Positions 53,175 through 57,092 of a DNA stretch of 64,000 nt are shown piece by piece. The DNA is from Haloarcula halophila (GTDB taxonomy: Archaea > Halobacteriota > Halobacteria > Halobacteriales > Haloarculaceae), in the NCBI RefSeq assembly GCF_029278565.1, contig NZ_CP119559.1:1488001-1552000 (forward strand). Direction: 5' to 3'. Made by a program: the position numbers and the translations under genes. Position 1 is the first letter of the stretch. Each line of letters begins with the position of its first letter. The notes beneath the pieces were generated by a model. The model ran no database searches, was not told the origin of the DNA, and saw nothing but the letters and a program-made list of their open reading frames with translations.

Positions 53175-54137
53175 GTGTCGCTGCTCGGTATCTTCGCGTC
53201 GGCTATCCTCCCGGTCGTCGGTGTGGCGGTGCTGGGGTTCCTCCTGGGTCGGTTCGAGAACGTCGACGCCGACCCGCTCAACACGATCACCGTCTACGTC
53301 CTCGCGCCGGCACTGGTCGTCCACAGCCTGACGACCTCGGAGTTGGCCGGCGGGACGATCCTCGCGGTCGTCGCCGCCGTCGGTCTCTTCACCGCGGCGA
53401 TGCTCGCGGTCGCGGAGGGGATCGGACGGCTCTGGGGCCACACCGAGCCGTTCCTGGGCGCGTTCGTCCTCGTGAGCGTCTTCCCCAACACCGGCAACTA
53501 CGGCATCCCCCTGGCCGACTTCGCCTTCGGCCCCACCGGGCGGAGCGTCGCCGTCCTCGTGACGGCCCTCCAGGGCGTGTTGTTGTACACGGTGGGTATC
53601 TACGTCGCCGCCCGGGGCAGTGGGAGCAGTCCGCTGGCGGACATGCGCCGGGTGTTCGGCGTCCCGCTGGTGTACGCCGTCGTCCTCGCGCTGGCGGTGC
53701 GGTGGCTGGGCGTCGTTCCACCGACCGAATCGACGCTCATGCAGACGCTGGCGTTGCTGGGCAACGCCTCGATCCCCGTGATGTTGCTCATCCTCGGGAT
53801 CCAGCTGTCCTCGGTCGACGTGGCGGGGACCCTCCGCCCGGTCGGGGTCGCGAGCGCGTTGAAACTTCTATTGGCACCCCTGGTCGCCACCGGGGCGGTG
53901 CTCGCGACCGGCGGACTCGTCGGTTTCGGGAACGGGACCGCGGCTCGCGTGGTCGTGCTCCTGCTTGCGACCCCGACCGGCGTGACGACGCTCATCCTCG
54001 TGGGCGCGTTCAGCGTCGACGAGGCGGGCGTCGAACCCGGCGAGTTCGTGAGCGCGACAGTGTTCGTGACGACAGTCGCGAGCGTGCTTACGGTGACACT
54101 GCTGGTCGCCGCGTTGCAGTCAGGACTGCTCGTCTGA
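53175..54137 (+). CDS. AEC family transporter
   Basis: A 320-residue auxin-efflux-carrier-type secondary transporter with about ten membrane helices arranged as two five-helix halves. It starts at a GTG giving VSLLGIFASAILPVVGVAVL; family motifs are the GFLLGR near the first helix, FVLVSVFPNTGNYGIPLADF in helix 4 and MLLILGIQLSSVD. The substrate is unknown; small organic anions are common for the family. The last 18 bp overlap the 3' end of the convergent pseudokinase gene. Confidence 0.87.
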   Translation: MSLLGIFASAILPVVGVAVLGFLLGRFENVDADPLNTITVYVLAPALVVHSLTTSELAGGTILAVVAAVGLFTAAMLAVAEGIGRLWGHTEPFLGAFVLVSVFPNTGNYGIPLADFAFGPTGRSVAVLVTALQGVLLYTVGIYVAARGSGSSPLADMRRVFGVPLVYAVVLALAVRWLGVVPPTESTLMQTLALLGNASIPVMLLILGIQLSSVDVAGTLRPVGVASALKLLLAPLVATGAVLATGGLVGFGNGTAARVVVLLLATPTGVTTLILVGAFSVDEAGVEPGEFVSATVFVTTVASVLTVTLLVAALQSGLLV

Positions 54138-55517
54138 GGGCAGCGAGCGCACTAACCGCCAGCAGTCCCGACGAACCTCCGCAGCCGTCTCGTAGCGACT
54201 CAGCTTCCGTCCCGCAGTCGCCTTCCTGACGATGGCGTCGACGGCGTCGGGGAGCTGTGGTTCTCGTTCGCTCGGTGCCGGAACTCCCTCGGTCAGTATT
54301 GTCTTCCGGACAGCGCCGTACTCGCCGGTTATCGGCGGTCGGCCGGTCAGGAGCCGGTAGCAGACGGCCCCGAGCGCGTAGACGTCGGTCGCGGCGTCGA
54401 CGGTGCCGTACGATCGGTCGAAATACTCCGGGGCGGCGTAGCGCGGGTCGAGGTAGTTCGCCGGCTGGACGTGCTCCCGGACCATCGTGAGTATCCCGAC
54501 GTTGTCCAGTCGGGGGGCCGGCAGTCCCGAGAGTTCACTGGACGGATAGACGACCGTCTTCGGGTCGAGTCCGCCGTGGACCACGCCGTTGTTGTGACAG
54601 TGGGCGAGCGCGCCCGCGAGGTGAGCGGTCTCCCGTAGCGCACGCTCGACGCCGACCCGGCCACGGTCGGCAAGTGTCCCGTCGAGATACGGGGTCGCGA
54701 CCCACGGACGGGGGTAATCCCCCCAGTCGTGGACGGTCGCGATCCCCTCGTGGACGGCCAGCCCGTCCCACTGGGCCAGCGCCTCGGCGACGCCGGCACC
54801 GAACGCCCGCCGGATCTCCTCGTCATCGGGCGGGTCGAACAGTCGGAGTGCAACGCCGTGGTCCTCGCCGTCGATGGTCGCCCGGGTCCGCAACACCGAG
54901 CCGTACCGGACCGCCTGTTCCGGTTCGACGACAGCGATCTCCTCGAAGTTCCCCAGGAGACTGATCGCCTGGAACGCCTCGGACTGTTCGGCACGGGCGA
55001 GCCGTTCGCGCCGTGTCACGGCGGCCGGGTCACCCCGGTGTTCGCGGTCTGCGGCTCGCTCGGGATCGGCGGTCCGGCCGCTGGTGTCGGTCTCTCGCTC
55101 GACGACACCCGGTCGGACCGGCTCCGCCTGTTGACTGTCGACGGCCTGTCTGACGGCGCCGAGGACGCTGCCGCCGTCGGCGGCACGGTCGAACTCCCAG
55201 ACCGTCGCGTCCGCGATCGCACTCGAGAGGCGTTTCCGGTCACGGTGATCGGCGACGACCCGGCGGACGGCGTCGGTGTGGTCGGCCGCAAGCGTCGCGA
55301 GCGTCCTGACGAGGACCTGCGTGTCCTCCGCCTCGGGGAGTCGGCCGACGAGTCGCTCGGTCAACGCCGGGACGACCGACGGATCGGCGTCGGCCAGGAG
55401 ACAGAGCGCACGCGCCGCCGCCCGGTCCGCGTCGCTCTCTAGAGCCGACAACAGCGGCGTCCCGAAGACGGACAGCAGGCTGTCGGCACTGTCCTCGGGG
55501 CCGGCGCCCGAACTCAT
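54120..55517 (-). CDS. Kinase-fold protein, predicted pseudokinase, with N-terminal HEAT-like region
   Basis: A 465-residue protein. Residues 1-130 are helical repeats resembling HEAT/ARM units (LCLLADADPSVVPALTERLV); 130-180 is an Arg/Glu-rich linker; 190-460 is a Ser/Thr kinase-like fold. The position of the VAIK lysine reads VALRLF (R225), the HRDLKPxN loop reads HGGLDPKT (314-321), lacking the catalytic Asp and Asn, and the DFG equivalent reads DNV (338-340). The APE (362-364) and the DVYALG helix with its conserved Asp (378) are intact. So the fold is kept but phosphotransfer is unlikely. A signalling scaffold or allosteric role is inferred. Partner unknown. Confidence 0.82.
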   Translation of the reverse strand: MSSGAGPEDSADSLLSVFGTPLLSALESDADRAAARALCLLADADPSVVPALTERLVGRLPEAEDTQVLVRTLATLAADHTDAVRRVVADHRDRKRLSSAIADATVWEFDRAADGGSVLGAVRQAVDSQQAEPVRPGVVERETDTSGRTADPERAADREHRGDPAAVTRRERLARAEQSEAFQAISLLGNFEEIAVVEPEQAVRYGSVLRTRATIDGEDHGVALRLFDPPDDEEIRRAFGAGVAEALAQWDGLAVHEGIATVHDWGDYPRPWVATPYLDGTLADRGRVGVERALRETAHLAGALAHCHNNGVVHGGLDPKTVVYPSSELSGLPAPRLDNVGILTMVREHVQPANYLDPRYAAPEYFDRSYGTVDAATDVYALGAVCYRLLTGRPPITGEYGAVRKTILTEGVPAPSEREPQLPDAVDAIVRKATAGRKLSRYETAAEVRRDCWRLVRSLPSDEQS

Positions 55518-55604: not shown

Positions 55605-57092
55605 TCAGTCGTCGGCGGTCGCCGGCCCGCCCGACGCGCGCGGGTCGGCGTCCCGCCATGTCCCACGGAGGAACCAAGCAGTCGCGATCCCGGCGGCGAG
55701 GACGTTCGAGACGCCGAAGGCCAGCCAGATCCCTTGTTCGCCCAGCGACTGTGCGAACAGGTCCGTCAGCGTCGGCCCGAGCCAGGCCGGGATCGCCACC
55801 GGTCGGGAGGCGACCCACGCGACGGGCAGACGGATGATCCCCAGCATCGTCACGGCCATCGCGGCCGCGGTGAGCGTCTTCCCGGCTCCGCGGAACCCGC
55901 CAGAGTACGCCCGGACGATACCGATGAAGCCGAAGGTGGGGGCGACCCACTGGAGGAATTCCGCGCCGATACGGACCACCTCCGGGTCGTCACTGAAGAC
56001 GCTGACGACCGTCGGTGCAGCGAAGATGGTGACCGCGCCCAAGGCAGTGAGGATGACGAACGAGACTTTCGCGGCGAAGTGGTTCGCCTTCGCCGCCCGG
56101 TCGGGCCGGTTCGCGCCGAGGTTCTGGCCGGTCATCGTCTCGACGCCCCGATCCATCGCGATCGCGGGCATGAAGACCAGCGAGAACACGCGGATGCCGA
56201 CCCCGAAGGCTGCGACGACGGTCACCGAGAACGTCCCGACGATGAACAGCATAGCGTTGATCGACAACGCCCGGCCGGTCCCTTCGAGGGAGGCCGGAAT
56301 GCCCAGTCGGAGCAGTTTCCCCAGATACGGGAGGTCCGGCACCATGTCACGGAGGTGGATCTGGATGCCCCGCGTCCCCCGGAGCATGATGGCGACGCCG
56401 ACGGCGAAGGCAAGCCCCCGCGAGAAGATCGTCGCGACAGCGGCGCCGATGACGCCCAGTTCCGGGAACGGTCCCCAGCCGAAGATCAGGAACGGGTCCA
56501 GAGCGATGTTCAACACGACCGTCCCGAACATCACGAGCATCGGCGTGATCGTGTCGCCGGCCCCGCGCATCAGCGCGATGAACACGAAGAAGCCGAACAT
56601 CGTCGACAGGCCCAGCGAGACGACCTGGAGGTAGCCCGTCGCACCCGGTAGCACCTGCTGGGACGCCCCCAACAGCGCCAGGAAGTCCTCAACGAAGAAG
56701 AAGCCGATCGCGCCCAGGATGAACGAAGCGCCGACTGCGAAGGTCAGAGTCTGTGAGGCCGCGTATTGGGCTTTCTTCGGCTCGTCGGCACCGGTGTGTT
56801 GGGCCACCAGAACGCTGCCGGCCACGGAGAGCCCCATGCCCAGCGAGATCAGCAGGAAGATCATCGGGAAGGCAAACGAGATCGCCGCGAGCGCCGTCGT
56901 GGAGTACTGACCCAGCCAGAACGTATCGGCGAGGTTGTACGCGACCTGGAGCAGGTTCGTGACGACGATGGGGAAAGAGAGATACAGCAGCGGCTTTCCG
57001 ATGTCGCCGCTCGTGAGATCGAGTTGCTCCTGGCCCTTGAACAGCGTGTCGAGGCGGTCGACGATCCGCTCGGCGACGCTTCGGGGACTCAT
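55605..57092 (-). CDS. MATE-family multidrug/Na+ efflux transporter
   Basis: A 495-residue transporter with twelve predicted membrane helices. The family's pattern is clear: an amphipathic start, then GKPLLYLSFPIVVTNLLQVA, YNLADTFWLGQYSTTALAAI with SFAFPMIFLLISLGMGLSVA, and in the second half TGRALSINAMLFIVGTFSVT. The ATG overlaps the TetR stop by 4 bases, so the pair is an operon with the regulator first. Substrates are probably lipophilic cations or drugs. A palindromic operator lies before the tetR start. Confidence 0.92.
   Translation of the reverse strand: MSPRSVAERIVDRLDTLFKGQEQLDLTSGDIGKPLLYLSFPIVVTNLLQVAYNLADTFWLGQYSTTALAAISFAFPMIFLLISLGMGLSVAGSVLVAQHTGADEPKKAQYAASQTLTFAVGASFILGAIGFFFVEDFLALLGASQQVLPGATGYLQVVSLGLSTMFGFFVFIALMRGAGDTITPMLVMFGTVVLNIALDPFLIFGWGPFPELGVIGAAVATIFSRGLAFAVGVAIMLRGTRGIQIHLRDMVPDLPYLGKLLRLGIPASLEGTGRALSINAMLFIVGTFSVTVVAAFGVGIRVFSLVFMPAIAMDRGVETMTGQNLGANRPDRAAKANHFAAKVSFVILTALGAVTIFAAPTVVSVFSDDPEVVRIGAEFLQWVAPTFGFIGIVRAYSGGFRGAGKTLTAAAMAVTMLGIIRLPVAWVASRPVAIPAWLGPTLTDLFAQSLGEQGIWLAFGVSNVLAAGIATAWFLRGTWRDADPRASGGPATADD

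Follow-up and report, generated by a model that had tools for sequence, protein, structure and literature searches.

Much is known of pseudokinases in eukaryotes, whereas their study in bacteria is only beginning. Among the eukaryotic examples, SCYL1-3 and ULK4 join a dead kinase domain to HEAT repeats, with the kinase domain first and the repeats after it, and are used as scaffolds. In the excerpted text of PMC12599244, a pseudokinase is defined as a protein without at least one of the β3 Lys, the HRD Asp and the DFG Asp, and the bacterial pseudokinases ActPs2, ActPs3/MviN and EssB/YukC are described as having lost the β3 Lys (Arg in ActPs2), the HRD Asp and the DFG motif; these proteins are often membrane-linked, and MviN works by partner recruitment (PMC12599244). 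The phrase "archaeal pseudokinase" was not found in the literature searched, and the combination of "pseudokinase" and "haloarchaea" returned only work that, judging by its title and the start of its abstract, is on another subject.

The window analyzed here (the whole stretch of 64,000 nucleotides) derives from the Haloarcula halophila genome (4.04 Mb, 4 contigs) and contains the gene for a protein that we refer to as pseudokinase A (G000:C1:1542123-1543517), with an ATG start and an intact frame in the window translation (Table 1). We consider it rather probable that this protein, which combines a dead Hanks-type kinase with a HEAT-like solenoid, serves without catalysis as a scaffold for docking at the membrane, or as a signal relay, and acts beside its paralogue, pseudokinase B. 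Upstream of A are genes for a TetR regulator and a MATE transporter, all three being codirectional in the window (Pfam), with 87 bases between MATE and A; a convergent Mem_trans permease gene overlaps the end of the A ORF by 18 bases.

Table 1. Features of the pseudokinase A locus, in window coordinates, with the basis of each assignment.
Feature	Position	Strand	Basis
HEAT-pseudokinase A, 465 aa, complete ORF	54120..55517	(-)	ORF and translation; Pkinase above Pfam cut-off; eight orthologues
HEAT-like alpha-solenoid, ~residues 7-114	55176..55499	(-)	AlphaFold model; HEAT in relatives
Pseudokinase domain, ~residues 190-460	54138..54950	(-)	A3 profile against PDB; Pfam best stretch residues 292-402
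R225 codon, β3 (VAIK) lysine position	54843..54845	(-)	Alignment with four intact kinases
G316 codon, catalytic HRD Asp position (HGG)	54570..54572	(-)	Alignment with four intact kinases
N339 codon, metal-binding DFG Asp position (NVG)	54501..54503	(-)	Alignment with four intact kinases
MATE transporter gene	55605..57092	(-)	MatE, 201 bits
Mem_trans (PF03547) permease gene	53175..54137	(+)	ORF; Pfam

Pfam Pkinase matched the window protein at 38.7 bits (cut-off 31.7) over the C-lobe only, and with phmmer the closest solved relatives were PknB-type kinases (E 1.5e-19). A profile built from 16 family members (A3) matched PknB in the PDB at E 2e-31 over both lobes, the match spanning profile positions 227-471 and thus the whole kinase domain, so that the fold is that of a Hanks-type kinase. 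The single-sequence AlphaFold model rendered the kinase domain poorly (mean pLDDT 45.5), and Foldseek with this model gave no match at E <= 0.001. An NCBIfam scan returned kinase models that scored far under their cut-offs; a single-protein scan of genome contigs returned one weak planctomycete kinase and nothing else, and a search of viral contigs returned two weak matches (L162 and L163).

Alignment with four intact haloarchaeal kinases, each of which keeps every catalytic and structural residue counted, places R225, G316 and N339 of the window protein at the positions of the β3 Lys, the HRD Asp and the DFG Asp. All three residues expected of an active Hanks-type kinase are therefore missing, and by the definition given above the protein is a pseudokinase, as the preliminary description of this DNA had predicted and as the alignment that it proposed bears out. 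The Arg at the ATP lysine, HGGLDPKT in the catalytic loop, and the retained APE (AAPE) and DVYALG motifs are all as described there. Its list of three lost features was correct and yet too short: the glycine-rich loop is gone, and A246 and T321 stand at the αC Glu and the HRDxxxxN Asn. Similarly, its reading of "DNV for DFG" was right about the loss and one residue out in register, since L-D-N-V-G of the window protein lies under V-S-D-W-G of the four intact kinases, with the Gly kept and the Asp replaced by Asn in N-V-G. The residues that hold the C-lobe together are kept, namely E364 (APE Glu), D378 (αF Asp) and R441 (αH/I Arg).

The same pattern extends across the family, for which we aligned 54 members: nine of branch A, 15 of branch B and 30 others (27 of the 36 pseudokinases from the 40 further membrane-protein loci described below were taken, and the B copy L050 is not included because the BLAST list feeding the alignment did not contain it). 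An Asp at the HRD position occurs in none of the 54 (G in 40, A in eight, S in four, C in one, and T in one), so that the loss is not by chance, as argued earlier. The β3 Lys is retained in five members, the αC Glu in two, the catalytic-loop Asn in nine and the DFG Asp in 18, while H314, W272 (hinge region), E364, D378 and R441 are identical in all 54, and LDPRYAAPEY, the P+1/APE platform, ranks with the most strongly conserved stretches. Because the HRD Asp is never present while the structural residues always are, these counts fit a domain conserved for its surface and fold and not for phosphotransfer, although some relatives, with the β3 Lys (5/54) or the DFG Asp (18/54), might be able to bind nucleotide.

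SelO and SidJ are kinase-fold proteins that lack the classic motifs and are enzymes nonetheless. SidJ is also named in the excerpt cited above (PMC12599244). That pseudokinase A is likewise an atypical but active enzyme, with moved catalytic residues or another kinase-fold reaction (AMPylation, glutamylation), strikes us as decidedly unlikely. The fold is under purifying selection and D318 is common to 34 of the 54 members, both of which would suit such an enzyme; however, at none of the catalytic or metal positions do all 54 share an acidic residue or a lysine, and H314 is the sole invariant residue among the catalytic loop positions counted. Possible, although doubtful, is a switch in which the altered pocket takes a ligand and the resulting shape change is relayed to a membrane partner, with no phosphate transfer. 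The invariant W272 would be in keeping with this, as would the N-lobe of A, which evolves most slowly in two of three pairwise comparisons (in the remaining one it equals the C-lobe), whereas the absence of the glycine loop, the β3 Lys and the DFG Asp from A makes ATP binding by this protein look unlikely.

In the AlphaFold model, residues 7-114 form successive antiparallel helices (pLDDT mostly 66-89); elsewhere the model is unreliable. VIA structure matches covered residues 3-113 only and comprised alpha-solenoids and other helical domains with Z up to 9.6, a value that the tool itself flags as indecisive where helical repeats are concerned, and the solenoid matches are ambiguous. In Pfam no HEAT model matched the window protein itself; HEAT_2, HEAT and HEAT_EZ scored above cut-off in the homologous N-termini of three of the 10 relatives scanned (L124, L129 and L064). 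The HEAT-like N-terminus that the preliminary description proposed is thus well supported by kinship and agrees with the helical model, but has no Pfam score of the protein's own behind it.

Pseudokinase A is one branch of a Halobacteriales pseudokinase family. A search with A in 60 related genomes gave some match in 26, and branch A comprises eight orthologues: seven from the genus, which share about 62-85% identity with A, and that of G032, at 41-46% (two aligners). With its own genome, A occurs in nine genomes, and its members group as a single clade (SH-aLRT 95) in a quick tree that leaves the deepest branches unordered, so that the HRD Asp may have been lost once or twice. Branch B is a full-length paralogue with 34-44% identity, present in 16 genomes including the own genome (the G022 copy being L050), and all nine genomes with A also have B. 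Separate from both in this tree is a second clade, of 10 rows, made up of degenerate proteins resembling kinases, which includes L071 of the own genome (G000:C1:1304932-1305558) together with L068-L070 and L072-L075; by eye, some of this clade, L068 and L070 among them, seem to have propeller repeats of the PQQ type. Among the Pkinase matches seen in the own genome, only L001 (G000:C1:880109-880822) has intact motifs (YRDLKPEN and DFN, by eye), and the gene after it resembles a VWA-type protein, also by eye.

Values of dN/dS between A and four of its seven genus orthologues were 0.18, 0.29, 0.31 and 0.39, about twice those of the neighboring genes (MATE, 0.09-0.18; permease, 0.11-0.29). As the frame is kept in all eight orthologues and dN/dS lies at 0.18-0.39, A is clearly under purifying selection and is not decaying, even though it evolves faster than its neighbors. 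A decaying former kinase without function might be read from the many lost catalytic residues and from the doubled dN/dS, but purifying selection in the four pairs computed, frames open in all nine members of branch A, and structural residues that are invariant throughout the family largely refute this, and we regard it as extremely improbable.

The codirectional genes of the window could also be read as an operon in which TetR, MATE and the pseudokinase together regulate export, and MATE does precede A at eight of the nine A loci. However, a MATE orthologue is present in 31 of the 32 genus genomes (own included) and A in eight of them, the G032 copy of A is located elsewhere, and at two MATE loci lacking A there was no remnant of A in the 1.5-kb flanks. 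We consider such an operon very unlikely, and the adjacency of MATE and A is probably one of position with no functional tie.

A different gene order characterizes the rest of the family. Directly downstream of B, and reached by way of the conserved neighbors of B, is a gene for a polytopic membrane protein of about 243 aa, from a protein family of about 245 aa that has no Pfam name; hydropathy shows a hydrophobic protein with a number of membrane segments, and W57, R103, G163, G178 and T179 are invariant over 18 members. Among the 60 relatives and the own genome, the membrane protein occurs in 19: all 16 with B, plus three (G044, G051 and G059) that carry more distant HEAT-pseudokinases. In 18 of these, its gene comes right after that of the pseudokinase and on the same strand; the exception by its coordinates is G051. 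A profile search of 392 genomes of the order detected the membrane protein in 92, from which 40 further loci were picked by hand for spread over families, hence not at random. In 35 of the 40, a family pseudokinase is directly upstream on the same strand, with gaps of -11 to 547 bases; the other five are L123 (pseudokinase on the opposite strand, more than 3 kb from the membrane protein), L140, L141, L157 and L158, the last being G051 again. A distant membrane-protein subfamily, read in two loci (L140 and L141), has no adjoining pseudokinase in either. Across the union of both sets, the two genes are adjacent in 53 of 58 genomes, from families f1, f4, f10, f12 and f17, and since the membrane protein matches at most six places per genome, the probability of chance adjacency is well under 1%. 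With a broader profile, the membrane protein was found in 28 of 392 genomes of the phylum, 27 of them of the same order; the single match beyond it (G482) is very weak (E 7e-4). Weak matches from this search are grouped with the distant subfamily of L140 and L141.

Outside branch A, the usual form of the family is therefore a two-gene unit, a soluble HEAT-pseudokinase followed by a polytopic membrane protein, and the adjoining membrane protein is a strong candidate for the partner of the family. No membrane-protein gene is next to A in any of the nine A genomes, and the single copy of the own genome is beside B, so that A belongs to the family by descent and not by synteny.

In the own genome, B and its membrane partner (L045:4675-10007; G000:C1, about 772363-777695; membrane protein at L045:9279-10007) are divergent to genes for HtrII (HAMP and MCPsignal) and sensory rhodopsin II (SRII; Bac_rhodopsin, E 3e-60), the name of the latter resting on its HtrII neighbor. 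This arrangement is kept in several genera of family f1: SRII is intact at 13 of the 16 B loci, a remnant at one (G024) and absent at two (G022 and G026), and genes of the SRII and HtrII cluster are present at 12 of 21 loci from other f1 genera (two of which, L044 and L053, are also among the 16 B loci). No rhodopsin is beside the unit outside f1 in the loci clustered. A necessary tie between B and SRII is countered by these non-f1 units, by B loci without SRII, and by SRII genomes without B (15 of the 26 in the genus whose SRII match is strong), leaving the association as a lead only; the adjacency may be inherited gene order. It seems rather unlikely that Halobacteriales carry an unrecognized signaling module, in which the polytopic protein is a sensor that signals via the dead kinase and HEAT solenoid and not via phosphorylation, and that in f1 this is wired to SRII/HtrII phototaxis, with A as a second, free pseudokinase tuning the same complex.

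For a non-catalytic scaffold or relay, which we favor, the protein-binding surfaces would be the pseudokinase C-lobe, with its P+1/APE platform, and the HEAT solenoid. Together, the pseudokinase and the membrane protein would make up a docking complex anchored in the membrane, with the membrane protein as its sensor or anchor and the pseudokinase as the part that recruits a client or switches it. As a duplicate, A may have lost its own membrane-protein neighbor or never had one. Because A is found only where B and its partner occur, it is probably tied to the B complex, and would work with this complex or compete at it. We infer this place for A from paralogy and from co-occurrence among related species, which are not independent observations. 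The earlier suggestion of a scaffold that acts on a partner is probably correct, in that it agrees with all the sequence evidence. With a family kept for its non-catalytic surface and gene order pointing to a candidate partner, the role of an archaeal dead kinase can be tested directly in genetically tractable haloarchaea.

Compared with known systems, the closest described fold is that of the bacterial PknB-type Hanks Ser/Thr kinases, with which the family shares the C-lobe by sequence and the fold by its profile. The window protein differs from PknB in that all catalytic and metal residues are replaced and in having an N-terminal HEAT-like solenoid, and the Pfam scan gave neither a membrane segment nor a PASTA domain. 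The intact haloarchaeal kinases L060, L063, L065 and L066, obtained in the same search, have a related domain with the same style of hinge (P-x-P-W), but still have the Lys, Glu, HLD, Asn and DWG in place, together with other accessory regions. Like ActPs2, ActPs3 and EssB as described in the excerpt of PMC12599244, pseudokinase A has lost the β3 Lys, the HRD Asp and DFG; unlike those proteins, its family is archaeal, has Gly, Ala or Ser and not Asn at the HRD Asp (of the ActPs2 pair of Arg and Asn, R225 fits and G316 does not), has a HEAT-like N-terminus, and has its membrane part as a separate neighboring gene. In contrast to the order in SCYL1-3 and ULK4, the archaeal solenoid precedes the kinase domain, which sets the window protein apart from that type. 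The build of HEAT repeats and dead kinase that it shares with SCYL and ULK4 is probably convergent, having apparently arisen independently.
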